DNA from: Nitrospinae bacterium RIFCSPLOWO2_12_FULL_45_22
GTDB taxonomy: Bacteria > 2-12-FULL-45-22
Direction: 5' to 3'
Length of the DNA stretch: 5,719 nt
NCBI GenBank assembly: GCA_001803565.1
Contig: MHDQ01000297.1
Coordinates: forward strand, 1-5,719
The translations under genes were made by a program, and so were the position numbers. Below the pieces are notes generated by a model that did not search any database, was not told the origin of the DNA, and saw only the letters and a list, made by a program, of their open reading frames with translations. Below are positions 1-5,561 of this stretch, one piece after another; position 1 is the first letter of the stretch; each line of letters opens with the position of its first letter.

Positions 1-1080
1 GTGAAATACGGACATGGGGCTCCGTTGCGTAGGATAAAGGTTTTAGAGGCTGATCACCCAATTCCTGATGAGGCGGGACTGCGGGCTACAGAGGAAATAG
101 TAGGTTTATTACAAAAGCTGACAGAGAAAGAGCTGGTTATATTTCTTATCTCGGGTGGAGGGTCGGCCTTACTCTCTCAGCCCTGCCCCGGCATAACTCT
201 GACCGATAAACAGGGACTTACCCAAATATTATTAAGCTGTGGCGCCACGATTGACGAAGTTAATGCCTTGAGAAAACACATTTCTCAGGTAAAGGGAGGG
301 AAGCTGGCACGGATGGCCTACCCAGCAACTATGGTCACATTGGTATTATCAGATGTTATTGGAGATCGTCTTGACGTCATTGCCTCTGGGCCTACCGTAC
401 CCGATAGCAGCACCTTTGCCGATTGCATCAGGATTATAGATAAGTATCATTTAACATCGAAAATACCTTATACTATCATCCAGCACCTGAAAAAAGGGTT
501 GCAGGGAGAGATAGAGGAAACCCCTAAACCGGGAGCCCCGATCTTTAGCTCCAGTCAAACGGTCATTATCGGTAGTAACATTTTAGCTATTAAAGCCGCT
601 AGCTTCCGGGCGAAAGCATTAGGGTATCGGCCCTTGATCCTCTCGTCCGCTATCCCCGGAGAGGCTCGTGAAGTAGCCCTGGTTCATGCAGCCATTGCTA
701 AAGAAGTTCTATATTCAGGCAATCCGGTAAAGAGGCCAGCCTGTCTCATCTCTGGCGGTGAGACCACGGTTACTATCCGGGGCAAGGGCAAAGGGGGAAG
801 AAATCAGGAATTTGTCCTGGCCGCTATCTTAGGGCTAGCCGCTTGCGAGGGGATAACGGTCTTGTCTGGCGGCACTGATGGGACAGATGGCCCCACTGAG
901 GCTGCGGGGGCGATAGCTGATCACCACACCTTAAAGCGAGCACAGGCCCTGGGTTTGATCCCTAACACCTTTTTAGATAATAATGATTCTTATCATTTTT
1001 TTAAAGCACTTGATGACTTACTGATTACCGGGCCTACGGGCACAAATGTTATGGACATCCGCATTATGATAATCGTTTAG
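1..1080 (+). CDS. gckA: Glycerate 2-kinase, MOFRL family (5'-truncated by window edge)
   Basis: Predicted cytoplasmic kinase that phosphorylates D-glycerate with ATP to give 2-phosphoglycerate, feeding glycerate into lower glycolysis. The 359 visible residues cover most of the N-terminal DUF4147 domain and the full C-terminal MOFRL domain. Visible family motifs are SGGGSALL (51-58), the VKGGKLAR stretch (97-104), LSDVIGD (116-122), IASGPTVPD (127-135), SGGETTVT (251-258), GKGGRNQE (263-270), the GTDGTDGPTEAAGA loop (291-304) and the terminal LITGPTGTNVMDIR (341-354). Family members are usually about 420-450 residues, so some 70-90 N-terminal residues lie upstream. The GTG at base 1 is therefore most likely an internal valine (family context is V-K-Y-G-H-G), not the true start. 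Only 14 nt separate its stop from the histidine kinase start, so it is probably the upstream member of the same transcript. Family assignment is strong; the substrate is taken from the family. Confidence 0.93.
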   Translation: MKYGHGAPLRRIKVLEADHPIPDEAGLRATEEIVGLLQKLTEKELVIFLISGGGSALLSQPCPGITLTDKQGLTQILLSCGATIDEVNALRKHISQVKGGKLARMAYPATMVTLVLSDVIGDRLDVIASGPTVPDSSTFADCIRIIDKYHLTSKIPYTIIQHLKKGLQGEIEETPKPGAPIFSSSQTVIIGSNILAIKAASFRAKALGYRPLILSSAIPGEAREVALVHAAIAKEVLYSGNPVKRPACLISGGETTVTIRGKGKGGRNQEFVLAAILGLAACEGITVLSGGTDGTDGPTEAAGAIADHHTLKRAQALGLIPNTFLDNNDSYHFFKALDDLLITGPTGTNVMDIRIMIIV

Positions 1081-1094
1081 GGAAAATTAAGAAG

Positions 1095-2585
1095 ATGATG
1101 AAGACTACTATTAGGCAGAAGATGGCCTTTGGCTATACCGTAATGGTCTTACTGGTGGTAGTAGTTAGTTTGTATGCCATTACCCAGTTAAACCGGCTAA
1201 ATAGATTTATCAATACCGCCCTTACGGTAGACTCTGAGATGCTAAATCTTACCGAAGACCTGATAAACTCCATTTTTATACAGGTCAGCCATGAAAAAAA
1301 ATTTTTGATAACGAAAGATATGGCCTTCCAAAGACTCTTCGAGGAGAAAGAGAAGGAATTCAGTGATAAGTTAAATACTTTAGCTGAGATAGCTGATTCC
1401 CAGGAAAAAAAAGGTTTGCTCGAACAAATACGATCTTTATATGACCAGTATCTCTCTCTGGTAAAGGGTGAATTTAAGGCTGCTACCCTGGAACATAAAA
1501 GTAACGAAGCTAGAAAACAGGCCCTGGTGGATTCCGTCACCGAAAAGATAAAACAACTGACAGAAGTCGCTCAGCTTTCTCTTAATAAGAAGATGGTGGC
1601 TTCCCAAAAAGTAGGGCTAAGGGGGGCTCGTCTGGCGATAATTATTACCGTGTTAGCCGTAATCTTTGGCTCTGCCTTCGCCTTCTTCATCACCCAGGGA
1701 ATCTGCTTGCCTGTCCAACGGTTAAAGGAAGGTACCTACCATATAGCCCAGGGCGATTTTAGTAAAAAGATAGAGCTGAAGAGCCAGGATGAAATAGGCG
1801 AACTGTCCGCAGCATTTAATGCCATGTGTGATCGGCTGAGGGAATTGGATCAACTCAAAGTAGATTTTGTCTCCAATATTACCCATGACTTAAAGACCCC
1901 CCTTTCCTCTATAGCGGAAGCTAATCAGCTTATGCTGGATGGTGTTAGTGGTCCCCTCTCACCTCAGCAGAAACACCTGGTAAACATCATTAAGGAAGAT
2001 ACTGCTCGGCTCACCCGGCTTATTGATAACCTCTTGGACCTGTCTAAAATGGAGGTCGGTATGCTAAAATACGATTTAAAACCAGGGAATATTTCTCCGC
2101 TAGTAAAAGAGAGTATAGAATTTATCAGGTTACTGGCCGAGCGCAAAAAGATTCGGGTAAGCTATTCTGAAGAGGGGATTCTTCCCATGGTTTTATTAGA
2201 TGGAGAGAAGATGGATCAGGTGCTAATAAACTTATTGAGCAATGCTATAAAATTTACCCCTGAAGGAGGTAAGGTAATTATCCAGACCAAGGGAGTGAGG
2301 GAATTCCCGATTAATGGTAAAGGGATAACCCTCTCAGAAGACGAGGCTATCCAGCTTAGTATTACTGATACCGGTATAGGCATTGCCCGAGAGGATATCA
2401 CTCGGGTATTTGATAAATTTTATCAGAGCGGTTCAGGCTCAAATAAGAAAGGGGGCGCGGGCTTGGGGTTAACTATCGCCCGGCATATAATCCAGGCCCA
2501 TGGGGGTCAGATCTGGGCTGAAAGCGAACCGGATAAAGGTAGTGTCTTCTATCTACTATTACCAGCGCTGCAGGAGGATGCCTGA
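1095..2585 (+). CDS. Membrane sensor histidine kinase (HAMP-HisKA-HATPase_c), GlrK/QseE-like by context
   Basis: Predicted inner-membrane sensor of a two-component system that autophosphorylates on histidine and passes the phosphate to the regulator at 3261-4640. In order it has TM1 (about 11-30), an extracytoplasmic all-helical region of about 148 residues (31-178) with a KKFLITKD segment (68-75) typical of four-helix-bundle sensor domains, TM2 (about 179-200), a HAMP linker (about 200-252), and a dimerisation/phosphoacceptor helix with THDLKTPL (263-270, His264). The ATPase core has the N box around LLSNAIKF (380-387, Asn383), G1 box DTGIGI (425-430), F box VFDKFYQ (438-444) and G2 box GAGLGL (454-459). 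All catalytic motifs look intact. ATG codons at 1095 and 1098 are both possible; AGGGA at 1079-1083, overlapping the previous stop, better suits 1095. The stop overlaps the next start by 1 nt (TGATG). The kinase class is secure. The GlrK-like label rests on the neighbours, because the sensor domain itself is not diagnostic. Confidence 0.95.
   Translation: MMKTTIRQKMAFGYTVMVLLVVVVSLYAITQLNRLNRFINTALTVDSEMLNLTEDLINSIFIQVSHEKKFLITKDMAFQRLFEEKEKEFSDKLNTLAEIADSQEKKGLLEQIRSLYDQYLSLVKGEFKAATLEHKSNEARKQALVDSVTEKIKQLTEVAQLSLNKKMVASQKVGLRGARLAIIITVLAVIFGSAFAFFITQGICLPVQRLKEGTYHIAQGDFSKKIELKSQDEIGELSAAFNAMCDRLRELDQLKVDFVSNITHDLKTPLSSIAEANQLMLDGVSGPLSPQQKHLVNIIKEDTARLTRLIDNLLDLSKMEVGMLKYDLKPGNISPLVKESIEFIRLLAERKKIRVSYSEEGILPMVLLDGEKMDQVLINLLSNAIKFTPEGGKVIIQTKGVREFPINGKGITLSEDEAIQLSITDTGIGIAREDITRVFDKFYQSGSGSNKKGGAGLGLTIARHIIQAHGGQIWAESEPDKGSVFYLLLPALQEDA
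2572..2577 (+). promoter_or_regulatory. Shine-Dalgarno AGGAGG for the lipoprotein gene
   Basis: AGGAGG lies inside the last codons of the kinase, 7 nt before the ATG at 2585. Together with the TGATG stop/start overlap it fixes the lipoprotein start and indicates translational coupling to the kinase. Confidence 0.85.
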
Positions 2586-3295
2586 TGAAGCAAAGAAAGG
2601 TAGGTTGGTGTTCGGTTAGGATATCTTTAATCTGGGCCTCTATAATAGGATTAATAGCATGCAGCCAGATTACAACGGGACTTTATAATGGATATCAAGG
2701 GACGGGCAGTGAGGCCAGACATTATACCTTAGTTCAGAAATACTATCGCCAGGGAGATTATCAGCGCTCGTTAGAAGAAAGCCTCACCCTTATATCCCAA
2801 TACCCTAAGAGTAATCTCTATGATAAGGCCCTGTTTTATGCTGCCTTAAATAAATTGCATCTGGGGAGTCCTGATGGCGACTATAGCGAAGCTAGCAGTT
2901 ATTTTAAGCGATTAGCGCAGGAATGCCCCAATAGCCTCTTGCAGGCTGAGAGTAATACCTGGATAGCGGTCCTTGCCGCTCTCTCCCTTAGAGATAACGA
3001 GATAGCTGCCTTGCAGAAGGAACTAGGGGAAAAGAAAAGTCGGCTGGCCCTCTTCCAGGAAGAGAAGGCAGAAACCATGCAGCAGTTGAAGGGAGAGATG
3101 GAGCTTAAGGTAAAGCAGTTGCAGCGGAAGAAGAGCCGCGAAATTGCCCAGTTGCAAAAGGAAATGAATCGGCTCAGGAAAGAGCTAGAGCTCTTAAAGA
3201 AGGTAGATGTTCAATTAGAGCAAAGAAAAAAGGATTTAAGAAAATCGGGAACCGCAGGGCATGACAAAGGAAAAAATCCTGGTAGTAGACGATGA
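2585..3295 (+). CDS. QseG-like lipoprotein with TPR-like region and long coiled coil
   Basis: Predicted envelope lipoprotein of 236 residues. Residues 1-25 form a type II signal peptide: basic start (KQRK), hydrophobic core and lipobox L23-I24-A25-C26, with Cys26 as the lipidated residue. Ser27 at +2 favours outer-membrane sorting by the Lol rule. Residues about 44-130 resemble tetratricopeptide repeats (YYRQGDYQRSLEES, then a second helical hairpin), as in BamD/CpoB-type proteins. Residues about 138-218 are a highly charged heptad-rich coiled coil. The last 16 residues (SGTAGHDK...) are low in structure and mostly encoded in the overlap with the next gene. It sits between a kinase and a sigma-54 activator, exactly where enterobacterial QseG lies. 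QseG is an outer-membrane lipoprotein known to contact kinase QseE in the periplasm and raise its activity. A similar accessory-sensor role is inferred here from position, size and architecture, not from a residue-level match. Confidence 0.85.
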   Translation: MKQRKVGWCSVRISLIWASIIGLIACSQITTGLYNGYQGTGSEARHYTLVQKYYRQGDYQRSLEESLTLISQYPKSNLYDKALFYAALNKLHLGSPDGDYSEASSYFKRLAQECPNSLLQAESNTWIAVLAALSLRDNEIAALQKELGEKKSRLALFQEEKAETMQQLKGEMELKVKQLQRKKSREIAQLQKEMNRLRKELELLKKVDVQLEQRKKDLRKSGTAGHDKGKNPGSRR

Positions 3296-4640
3296 GCCTA
3301 ATATCCTTGATCTGATAAAGATACGGCTGGAGTCTCAAGGGTATGAGGTAATCCCCGCAGACGAGGGGGAGACGGCCCTAGCCCGAGCCCGAGACGTGGT
3401 CTTAGACCTGGCTATTATGGACCTTAAACTAGGTCAAGGAGAAGATGGCCTCGGTATTATGGAAAAGCTGCTCCTCATTAACCCCCATATACCGGTTATT
3501 ATCCTGACCGCTCATGGGAGTATTGCTAATGCCGTTGAGGCCATGAAAAAAGGGGCATATAGCTACCTGACAAAGCCTTATAAACCGGATGAGCTACTCC
3601 TCCATGTGAAAAAGGCCCTGGAAAAACAGCGCTTAACCCGAGAGATAGCTAATCTAAGGACGATATTGGAGGAGCGGTTCCAGATCAAGAATATTATTGG
3701 CCGCAGCCCCAGGATGGAGGAGATCTTTTGTCAGATAGAACGGGCAGCCCGGACCGAGGCCACTATTGCCCTTTATGGCGAGAGCGGTACTGGCAAAGAA
3801 CTTATCGCCAAGACCATCCATTTACAGAGTCCCAGGGCTAAAGGGCCTTTTGTGCCCATCAATTGCGGGGCCTTGCCTGAAAGCCTTTTAGAGAATGAGC
3901 TCTTTGGTCATATAAAGGGGGCTTATACCGATGCCCGAGAATCTAAAGAAGGACTCTTTGCCCAGGCCGATGGTGGTACCATCTTTCTCGATGAGATAGG
4001 CGATACCACCCAGGCCCTCCAGGTAAAGTTATTACGGGTACTGCAAGAAAAGGAGTTTAAACCCTTGGGCGGAGAGCGGATCGTAAAGGTCAATGTGCGG
4101 GTTATCATAGCCTCTCATAAAGACCTTAAGCGGGCGGTAGAAAAAGGGGAGTTCCGGGAAGACCTCTTTTACCGTATCCATGTTGTGCCCATCTACCTGC
4201 CACCATTACGAGAGAGGAGGGAAGACATCCCTCTCCTGGCCGATCATTTCCTTAAAAAGTATGGCCAGGAAATGGCTAAAGAAATCAGGGGTTTTACCCC
4301 CGCCGCTATGCAGAAAATGATGCTTTATCACTGGCCCGGCAATATTCGGGAGTTGGAAAATACTATCGAACGGGCCGTGGTCTTAATTACCCATGATCTT
4401 ATCTCGGTGGAAGACCTTTTCCCTCTGGTAGACTCCCAGGAAAAGGGAACGGACGGCCGCGATAAGGGTAGTCTCCTATCTTACAAAGAGGCCAAAGAAG
4501 AATTTGAAAAACAATACCTGGCCCAAATATTGCGCCAGACCCGAGGGAATGTCAGGCAGGCTGCTAAACTAGCCAACTACCGGGGTGACCTATACCGCTT
4601 AATGAAGAAATACGCCCTGAAGGCCCATGATTTTAAGTAG
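3261..4640 (+). CDS. glrR: Sigma-54-dependent response regulator, GlrR/QseF-like (REC-AAA+-Fis HTH)
   Basis: Predicted cytoplasmic DNA-binding activator of sigma-54 RNA polymerase, partner of the kinase at 1095. The receiver domain (4-120) has acidic pair D10/D11, phosphoacceptor D54, T83 and K105. The AAA+ domain (about 143-375) has Walker A GESGTGKE (173-180), sigma-54-contact loop GAYTDA (220-225) in place of GAFTGA, Walker B TIFLDE (240-245), the REDLFYRI arginine-finger segment (299-306) and WPGNIREL (358-365). The C-terminal Fis-type helix-turn-helix covers about 429-452 (GNVRQAAKLA, then a recognition helix with LYRLMKKY). The KQYL...GNV...AA...LY+L...L.A.DFK pattern at the end closely follows E. 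coli GlrR as I recall it. The ATG at 3261 lies 35 nt inside the lipoprotein gene; CGGGA at 3246-3250 is only a modest ribosome site, but MTKEKILVVDDE is the expected receiver start. Odd point: Asp224 in the GAFTGA loop. Class is certain; GlrR orthology is likely but untested. Confidence 0.93.
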   Translation: MTKEKILVVDDEPNILDLIKIRLESQGYEVIPADEGETALARARDVVLDLAIMDLKLGQGEDGLGIMEKLLLINPHIPVIILTAHGSIANAVEAMKKGAYSYLTKPYKPDELLLHVKKALEKQRLTREIANLRTILEERFQIKNIIGRSPRMEEIFCQIERAARTEATIALYGESGTGKELIAKTIHLQSPRAKGPFVPINCGALPESLLENELFGHIKGAYTDARESKEGLFAQADGGTIFLDEIGDTTQALQVKLLRVLQEKEFKPLGGERIVKVNVRVIIASHKDLKRAVEKGEFREDLFYRIHVVPIYLPPLRERREDIPLLADHFLKKYGQEMAKEIRGFTPAAMQKMMLYHWPGNIRELENTIERAVVLITHDLISVEDLFPLVDSQEKGTDGRDKGSLLSYKEAKEEFEKQYLAQILRQTRGNVRQAAKLANYRGDLYRLMKKYALKAHDFK

Positions 4641-4653
4641 GGAAAAAGCATCC

Positions 4654-4693
4654 TCTGCCTCAAAATAGAGACATCTGCCTCAAAATAGAGACA
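4654..4693 (+). repeat. Two tandem 20-bp repeats, candidate GlrR-type activator sites
   Basis: A 20-base unit starting TCTGCCTCAAAA occurs twice without change or gap (4654-4673, 4674-4693). Each copy is an imperfect palindrome, TGcCTC-N6-GAGaCA, and contains TGCC-N10-GACA (4656-4673 and 4676-4693). That is one base from the TGTC-N10-GACA operator recalled for E. coli GlrR. The repeats begin 14 bp after the regulator stop and centre about 216 and 196 bp upstream of the predicted sigma-54 start site, a normal enhancer distance. The 20-bp period puts the two sites on nearly the same DNA face, which suits cooperative binding. The repeat is seen directly; the activator-site role is inferred. Confidence 0.7.
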
Positions 4694-4854
4694 TCTGGCT
4701 CTGCCTAACTGCTGTCTAGCTTCTGCCATATATGCCGGGTGAGTATGAAGCAGAAATGAGGCAAAGGATACTAGCTTTCCGGTTTAGAATCAGCGGCTAG
4801 AAATATCCCTTCCCTGCCAGTCAGCCTAGGCCTCAGAGCCCTTTCATATCACCT

Positions 4855-4870
4855 TGGCACAACCTTTGCT
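4855..4870 (+). promoter_or_regulatory. Sigma-54 (-24/-12) promoter
   Basis: TGGCACAACCTTTGCT matches the TGGCACG-N4-TTGCW consensus at every position except the weakly constrained G after TGGCAC. The GG at 4856-4857 and GC at 4868-4869 have the required 10-bp spacing. The expected start is about 12 nt past the GC, near A4881. It points at the small exported protein gene at 5044, lies downstream of the sigma-54 activator gene, and has candidate enhancer repeats about 160 bp upstream. Confidence 0.88.
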
Positions 4871-4880
4871 CTTTATAACT

Positions 4881-5043
4881 AGACATAATCGGCCTAATCT
4901 TTAGGAGGCCATCAAACAAATCCGCCCAGGTAGTCGAGGGGATCCTCGACTGGATAAGAATTATGCAGGGCTCTGATGAGGCCTGCACGGGGGATTGGGT
5001 GATGGTTTCCTTGAAATTTAAAGTAGAGAGGAGGTGATATTTA
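4881..5043 (+). other. Structured 5' leader of about 163 nt
   Basis: This is the predicted untranslated region between the sigma-54 start and the ATG at 5044. Hairpin A pairs 4932-4939 with 4944-4951 (AGTCGAGG / CCTCGACT, loop GGAT, perfect 8 bp). Hairpin B pairs TGCAGG (4964-4969) with CCTGCA (4982-4987) and, after one G-G mismatch, CTC with GAG around a TGAT loop. A weaker hairpin, CCTAA-TCT-TTAGG, lies at 4893-4905. No T-run follows any of them, so none looks like a terminator. It may control mRNA stability or translation, or yield a small RNA by processing; it matches no riboswitch class I recognise. Confidence 0.5.
5029..5038 (+). promoter_or_regulatory. Extended Shine-Dalgarno AGGAGGTGAT
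   Basis: Ten consecutive bases complementary to the usual 16S rRNA 3' end; the AGGAGG core ends 9 nt before the ATG at 5044. It sets that ATG, rather than the one at 5056, as the start, and predicts very strong translation, as for an abundant envelope protein. Confidence 0.9.
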
Positions 5044-5364
5044 ATGGTACGAAGAATGTTAGCCGTTATAATCTCCCTGGCAGTGATGGTGGCCTTTACC
5101 ATGCCAGTTTTGGCCCAGGAGGAAGCCCCGACAGCCCAGACTGTGAAGGGTAAGGTGGAGAAGCTGGATAAGGAAGGCAAGAAAGTCACTATTGCTGGGA
5201 CTGAGTACGACCTGAGTGAGGAGGCTGCTGCTGTTGAAGTAGCCGAAGGTGATGAGGTAGAAGCAACCGTAGAAGGTACTACCGTAAAGACCCTCGCTAA
5301 GGCTGCTGCTCCGGCAGAGGCACCAGCTCCCGCTGAGGCTCCCGCTGAGGCCCCGGCTGAGTAA
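5044..5364 (+). CDS. Small exported acidic protein with beta-rich core and Ala-Pro-Glu tail
   Basis: A 106-residue protein I cannot assign to a named gene. Residues 1-24 are a classical type I signal peptide: VRR, hydrophobic core 5-19, and VLA before a predicted cut at Ala24/Gln25. The mature protein should be periplasmic and about 82 residues. Residues 32-85 alternate beta-like segments (QTVKGKVEKLD, KKVTIAGTEYDL, GDEVEATVEGTTVKTL) in the manner of small OB-like or DUF5666/DUF1344-type domains; this is a resemblance only. Residues 86-106 are a low-complexity tail of repeated PAEA units rich in Ala, Pro and Glu, perhaps an extended spacer or cell-wall-associated segment. The mature part is strongly acidic. 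It stands alone between a sigma-54 promoter and a terminator, next to the two-component genes, so it is a likely direct target of that regulator. Coding is well supported by the ribosome site, signal peptide and terminator; function is unknown. Confidence 0.88.
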   Translation: MVRRMLAVIISLAVMVAFTMPVLAQEEAPTAQTVKGKVEKLDKEGKKVTIAGTEYDLSEEAAAVEVAEGDEVEATVEGTTVKTLAKAAAPAEAPAPAEAPAEAPAE

Positions 5365-5415
5365 CCGGTAAAGGAAGGCGAATAAACCGAGGTAATATCT
5401 AGCCTTCGTAAGCAT

Positions 5416-5452
5416 AAGGCCCTGTTTTAAAAGACAGGGCCTTTGTTTTTTT
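5416..5452 (+). terminator. Rho-independent terminator
   Basis: A perfect 10-bp stem pairs AAGGCCCTGT (5416-5425) with ACAGGGCCTT (5434-5443) around an 8-nt loop, followed by TGTTTTTTT (5444-5452). It ends the transcript of the small exported protein 51 nt after its stop. The minus-strand side lacks a T-run, so it should act in one direction only. Confidence 0.93.
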
Positions 5453-5477
5453 AGCCCCAAAATAAACCCTGCTTCTT

Positions 5478-5561
5478 CTATTCTTCACCCCTCAACCCCA
5501 CTAAAACTACACGAATCGGTAAAAGTTTGGCTAAGTATTCAGTAAACCACGAGATTATCAC
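5478..5561 (-). CDS. Possible 27-codon minus-strand small ORF with good ribosome site
   Basis: A GTG start at 5561 is preceded by AGGAGG (5575-5570 on the minus strand) with 8-nt spacing, and the frame ends at TAG (5480-5478). The peptide begins MIISWFTEYLAKLLP and is amphipathic to hydrophobic with a charged end (LRGEE). The ribosome site overlaps the amber stop of the frame above, and the two frames are in the same phase, so this may instead be the tail of one longer gene cut by a nonsense codon. Function unknown; it could be chance. Confidence 0.2.
   Translation of the reverse strand: MIISWFTEYLAKLLPIRVVLVGLRGEE

Follow-up and report, generated by a model that had tools for sequence, protein, structure and literature searches.

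Experimental knowledge of GlrR (QseF) comes mainly from enteric bacteria, in which it activates a small RNA and rpoE. A GlrR-like regulator is encoded at a locus of Nitrospinae bacterium RIFCSPLOWO2_12_FULL_45_22 (genome of 3.67 Mb in 321 contigs), for which an earlier note, made from the DNA alone, proposed that the DNA specificity of the regulator had been conserved while its target had changed. The window, i.e., the whole stretch of 5,719 nucleotides analysed here, corresponds to one entire contig, and its features are collected in Table 1; a single genome of our comparison set (G001) belongs to the same order. According to our analysis, the locus is probably a GlrK-QseG-GlrR-type three-component envelope-sensing system with a local output of its own.

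Table 1. Features of the window, with the basis of each assignment
Feature	Position	Strand	Basis
Glycerate kinase	1–1080		
Sensor histidine kinase (HAMP-HisKA-HATPase), GlrK/QseE position	1095–2585	+	Pfam
TPR/coiled-coil lipoprotein, QseG position	2585–3295	+	Lipobox LIAC, C-terminal motif, weak TPR/YbgF-like matches
GlrR-like sigma-54 activator (receiver, AAA+, Fis-type HTH)	3261–4640	+	Pfam, NCBIfam, homology, tree
Activator site 1 (predicted), TGCCTC-AAAATA-GAGACA	4656–4673	+	15.3 bits, E. coli glmY matrix
Activator site 2 (predicted), same sequence as site 1, 20 bp centre to centre	4676–4693	+	15.3 bits
Sigma-54 promoter TGGCAC-N5-TTGCT, TGGCACAACCTTTGCT	4855–4870	+	Consensus; predicted +1 about 4881
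Untranslated leader, predicted long closing helix with two inner hairpins	4881–5043	+	
Target: signal peptide, small OB-like beta-barrel, Ala/Pro/Glu-rich tail, 106 aa	5044–5364	+	
Intrinsic terminator of the target transcript	5416–5443	+	12-bp stem then TGTTTTTTTA

Gene order and affinities of the regulator

The gene order of GlrK-QseG-GlrR systems (kinase, lipoprotein, regulator) is found in the window, the lipoprotein and regulator genes overlapping by 35 nt. The kinase shares 26% identity with E. coli GlrK over 332 aa (E = 7e-30), while the lipoprotein combines a lipobox with a C-terminal coiled-coil motif ending in I-D/E-x-x-L-x-x-R-K (LKKVDVQLEQRK, for which the E. coli QseG counterpart is LTDIERQLSTRK). 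Because this motif was drawn up in the course of our analysis, the likeness to QseG based on it is suggestive only; moreover, the lipoprotein does not match the Pfam family PF13942 (Lipoprotein_20, YfhG), whereas E. coli QseG does so at 1.5e-80.

The regulator features the receiver, sigma-54 AAA+ and Fis-type HTH domains and is 44% identical to E. coli GlrR across 455 aa, a stretch that takes in both the HTH and the C-terminal DFK. It is the top match to the GlrR model in its own genome, with a full-length alignment (442.8–443.2 bits), but at about 443 bits it lies below the cut-off of the equivalog model NCBIfam NF011695 (763 bits, exceeded in one of 14 control genomes), so that the curated models do not class it as a GlrR equivalog. 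The maximum-likelihood tree places AtoC, ZraR, NtrC and 16 further activators together in a supported clade (97/91). Separate from it are E. coli GlrR, the window regulator, its paralogue on contig C6 and the regulators of similar gene triads from several phyla; within this second set, the window regulator is sister to the Nitrospira triads (87/89) and falls outside the narrow E. coli GlrR clade. The membership in the GlrR family assumed by the earlier note is thus upheld by the tree, which places the regulator on the GlrR side, but not by the equivalog cut-off or the YfhG lipoprotein model. QseE/QseF-like proteins have been reported, based on KEGG, from beta- and deltaproteobacteria and from Nitrospira (PMC8895600).

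Two features of the protein count against a GlrR-type reading. First, its sigma-54 contact loop reads GAYTDA, where GAFTGA is expected; the same variant occurs in Desulfovibrio DVU2275 and is listed in the corresponding study as expected to retain activity (PMC4641369). Second, its HTH is one residue short just ahead of the recognition helix, in comparison with all other GlrR-like proteins aligned; the predicted structure of the HTH is still normal (pLDDT 90) and its profile is matched by NtrC/Fis structures.

The paralogue on C6 (L066), the regulator of which is 56% identical to that of the window, belongs to a second GlrR-like triad. It is followed by a promoter (TGGTATACTTTTTGCT) with different repeats and by an operon including peptidoglycan-binding and OmpA-type lipoproteins, so that each of the two GlrR-like circuits in this genome would be directed at envelope or exported proteins.

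Predicted activator sites and promoter behind the regulator gene

The stop codon of the regulator gene (TAG at 4638–4640) is followed, 13 bases on, by the first of two exactly identical 20-bp units (TCTGCCTCAAAATAGAGACA, at 4654–4673 and 4674–4693) and then by a third, partial unit (TCTGGCTC); the earlier note was right to see the gene end just before the repeats, though it gave a gap of 14 bases. The two full units each contain TGCCTCAAAATAGAGACA, the first tandem copy of which begins 15 bases past the stop. As claimed beforehand, the TGCC-N10-GACA held by each unit is one base off the operator, i.e., it shares seven of the eight fixed bases of the QseF/GlrR consensus published as TGTCN10GACA (PMC8745638) or, alternatively, as TGTN12ACA (PMC6075780). 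The exact TGTC-N10-GACA is absent from the window sites, in which the left half is TGCC, and we counted this against the GlrR reading.

To score the resemblance, a weight matrix was built from the three operators located upstream of E. coli glmY (TGTCTGTAAATCACGACA, TGTCGCTTTCTGGCGACA and TGTCTCTTTTTAGCGACA) and from these alone, which themselves score 19.6–24.0 bits. The window sites reach 15.3 bits each, a value attained by none of 5000 dinucleotide shuffles of 4641–4855, while 19 other regions upstream of −24/−12 elements (18 in the same genome and one in G001) do not exceed 8.9 bits. Moreover, the reverse complement of the window site agrees with the third E. coli glmY site at 14 of 18 positions. 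In sequence, the candidate operator is similar to that of E. coli GlrR, although the two lineages are evolutionarily very distant. Matches to the loose pattern TGYC-N10-GACA number 55 + 54 in the genome, hardly more than the 41 + 42 of a reversed control, and their count, which proves little, was dropped as evidence on its own; a third, weak site at 4746 was rejected, as its matrix score is −1.8.

The −24/−12 element lies 161 bases past the second site, in agreement with the consensus sigma-54 promoter announced about 160 bp past the repeats, and it carries GG-N10-GC within TGGCAC/TTGCW; the predicted start site follows from its GC at 4868–4869, taken as −13/−12. No sigma-70-like promoter was found at 4600–5480. 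Across the genome, the exact pattern TGGCACN5TTGCW occurs 16 times (one time in the control) and the looser TGGYRYN5TTGCW 58 times (eight in the control), several of these promoters being ahead of genes that are credible targets, e.g., for flagellar or exported proteins. Sigma-54 promoters are thus a real class in this genome, and from the 58 promoters (against eight) together with 23 activators we infer that the genome encodes rpoN and has a sigma-54 regulon.

Against the GlrR reading, the tandem arrangement might have arisen recently, by duplication of a single site. A more radical proposal, which we consider very improbable, is that the repeats have nothing to do with activation and stem from chance or mutational tandem duplication, or else form an RNA element of the regulator operon (a weak terminator or a stability element). 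The exact identity of the units is what a recent duplication would leave, a short stem is possible in each of them, and they overlap, on the minus strand, with a weak match resembling a terminator, albeit no more than expected; yet the plus strand is devoid of a T-run, and neither the matrix match, nor the placement upstream of a −24/−12 promoter, nor the parallel case in another genome (G363, see below) fits this proposal.

Among the activator genes of the genome, at least 23 in number, ten of 23 are followed on the same strand, at a distance of no more than 450 bp, by a sigma-54 promoter, for an expectation of 0.08, and the layout observed in the window is in itself ordinary: sigma-54 promoters placed behind the gene of their own regulator are common and already known. 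The ten loci (on contigs C6, C12, C129, C137, C187, C251, C266, C275, C290 and C297, the last being the window) make up a natural set of HTH-operator pairs, several with dyads of their own, e.g., TGTTAC-N6-GTAACA (C187) and TGTTAAC-N6-GTTAACA (C137), and these about ten activator-operator pairs would be useful for understanding how a Fis-type HTH selects its site.

With so many activators encoded, adjacency is no proof, and the promoter might be driven by a different protein, for example the C6 paralogue, the neighbouring regulator acting elsewhere. We deem this improbable, as the adjacency of activators and sigma-54 promoters far exceeds chance in this genome and as the C6 system owns a downstream promoter with different repeats. 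Somewhat less improbable, but still unlikely, is that the promoter is real and driven by the neighbouring activator, whereas the likeness to GlrR sites reflects the generic TGT-N12-ACA geometry of NtrC-type operators instead of a conserved specificity. TGT...ACA dyads of similar size do exist in other local circuits (C187, C137), and the C6 regulator, nearer kin to that of the window than E. coli GlrR is, has different sequences (none of them matches the glmY matrix of E. coli, on which they reach 5.1 bits). However, such dyads score at most 5.1 bits on this matrix, against 15.3 bits for the window sites, and G363 harbours near-identical E. coli-type sites behind a GlrR-like gene of its own.

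Under the preferred reading of a local GlrR-type circuit, the kinase, probably tuned by the lipoprotein, would phosphorylate the regulator, dimers of which would then bind the two tandem TGYCTC-N6-GAGRCA sites behind their own gene and reach the sigma-54 polymerase on the promoter by looping over about 160 bp. A monocistronic transcript would start at the predicted position, carry a structured leader that may mask its ribosome-binding site and encode a small OB-like protein destined for export.

The exported protein and its leader

The presence of a signal peptide in the product of the downstream gene supports the earlier note, to which the adjacent target appeared to be secreted. The predicted core of this protein has five strands (pLDDT about 80), and its top Foldseek matches, CusF and PilY2, are weak (E = 0.015–0.02); it is probably a small OB-like exported protein, as judged from these models. 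Copper binding, which a CusF-like fold would evoke, was rejected, because the Pfam match is sub-threshold and covers 20 residues only and because His, Met and Trp are all absent from the mature protein.

The leader (163 nt) has a minimum free energy of −69.4 kcal/mol (180 nt folded) and a z-score of about −6, the lowest among the 180-nt stretches tested along the window, in a fold predicted from a single sequence. Its 5′ part (4888–4902) is predicted to pair with 5025–5038, thereby covering most of the Shine-Dalgarno sequence. It has no Rfam match at the gathering score, hence no known RNA family, while GlmY has no match at E up to 10 in 4640–5460; searched as DNA in 60 relatives, the leader retrieved the window itself, the other matches being short and due to chance. 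A possible upstream ORF of 24 codons (4963–5037, MQGSDEACTGDWVMVSLKFKVERR) ends within the Shine-Dalgarno sequence of the target, 6 bases before the ATG. We put forward, as a tentative and rather doubtful idea, that GlrR-type regulators have kept a single DNA address across phyla while their outputs were exchanged, and that the relevant product of the window may be RNA: as the folded leader would cover the ribosome-binding site, the circuit might, like that of E. coli, act by means of a structured RNA, the leader either gating translation in cis or yielding a processed small RNA.

A diverged second copy of part of the locus (82–84% DNA identity) is found on another contig of the same genome (G000:C235:4547–4918), in which a deletion at the shared ATGGAGAAGCTG joins the regulator receiver to what is left of the exported protein, its C-terminal part, without sites, promoter, leader or signal peptide; this contig could instead come from a sister strain or be a misassembly. 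Measured against this copy, the exported part has a dN/dS of 0.06 and the receiver one of 0.09, indicating purifying selection on each, from which it follows that the target gene is real and that its adjacency to glrR predates the divergence of the two copies.

Other genomes and known systems

The distribution of the sites was studied by searching 386 genomes for two TGYCNC-N6-GNGRCA sites at most 62 bp apart. Six genomes matched (two in the reversed control), and two of the six, the window genome and G363, have the pair immediately past a GlrR-like gene. G363 belongs to another phylum and its regulator falls in the E. coli GlrR clade; its sites (TGTCGCTTGCCGGCGACA and TGTCGCTTGCTGGCGACA) lie 7 and 63 bp past the stop codon, the second being identical to an E. 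coli glmY site at 17 of 18 positions, and they are followed by a near-consensus −24/−12 element (CGGCACGCCCTTTGCT) at +144 and by a small Fis-type HTH gene at +215. The pair matches in G272, G246 and G128 were set aside, as they have no activator gene within 1.5 kb. Another of the six, G119 (C72:8092–8131, L189/L194), has its TGYC...GRCA pair about 50 bp ahead of a sigma-54 promoter of consensus type and of a gene for an exported protein, and no activator gene is close by.

No activator sites were found near the regulator in most other triads, namely those of Nitrospira, G038, G092, G360, G248, G376, G111 and G386. G386 is the sister of G363, in the same family; its lack of sites and that of the Nitrospira triads indicate that the layout is not general. 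Likewise, the search for an orthologous locus in named genomes yielded mostly Nitrospira and deltaproteobacterial regulators with 36–59% HTH identity, none of them with sites; an alignment of 11 HTH sequences was rejected as a query because it was too diverse. Directly after the G386 triad (C120, L184/L195) comes a gene whose product, an exported protein of 79 aa with an OB-like appearance, is reminiscent of the window target, but BLAST detected no homology between the two. Our literature search found no GlrR-type operator outside enterics.

Altogether, the proposal of a conserved specificity with a changed target gains from the matrix score and from the G363 parallel, and loses from the many triads devoid of sites. 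The window probably holds a genuine GlrR-type circuit, local and dependent on sigma-54, whose regulator would act as GlrR does, and there is good, though indirect, evidence that the GlrR specificity has been kept while the output differs; a conserved operator with changed outputs is likely. If the operator is conserved in both the window and G363, GlrR targets would be predictable by motif across many uncultured bacteria, and the locus would offer a clean case of a regulator whose output was exchanged while its DNA specificity persisted.

Several known systems share part of this arrangement. In Desulfovibrio, sigma-54 activators are often co-localised with their promoters, as in the window, and the DVU0569 promoter is downstream, according to an excerpt of PMC4641369 in which, unlike here, no GlrR-type operator is reported. 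In the E. coli AtoS-AtoC/atoDAEB system, the activator gene is likewise followed by two 20-bp sites and a sigma-54 promoter (PMC3118216), but these sites are inverted and differ in sequence, the target operon serves the catabolism of short-chain fatty acids, and AtoC is on the opposite side of the tree from the window regulator. The G363 locus shares with the window a GlrR-like gene, two sites (TGTCGC-N6-GCGACA in G363), a −24/−12 element and a target, which in G363 lie within 215 bp of the stop; its sites are 56 bp apart instead of 20, its leader spans about 45 nt (163 nt in the window), and, in place of an exported protein, its target gene encodes a small Fis-type HTH protein and is succeeded by a kinase gene. 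Finally, E. coli GlrK-QseG-GlrR (QseE-QseG-QseF) shares with the window the kinase, the lipoprotein and the sigma-54 activator in the same order, a sigma-54 promoter beside the operon, the envelope theme and, in the glmY operator, the same length and dyad with near-identical half-sites. In contrast, the window regulator and lipoprotein are outside the curated family models, the sites and promoter stand behind the operon instead of before it, and the output is an exported-protein gene instead of the GlmY small RNA (with rpoE elsewhere).
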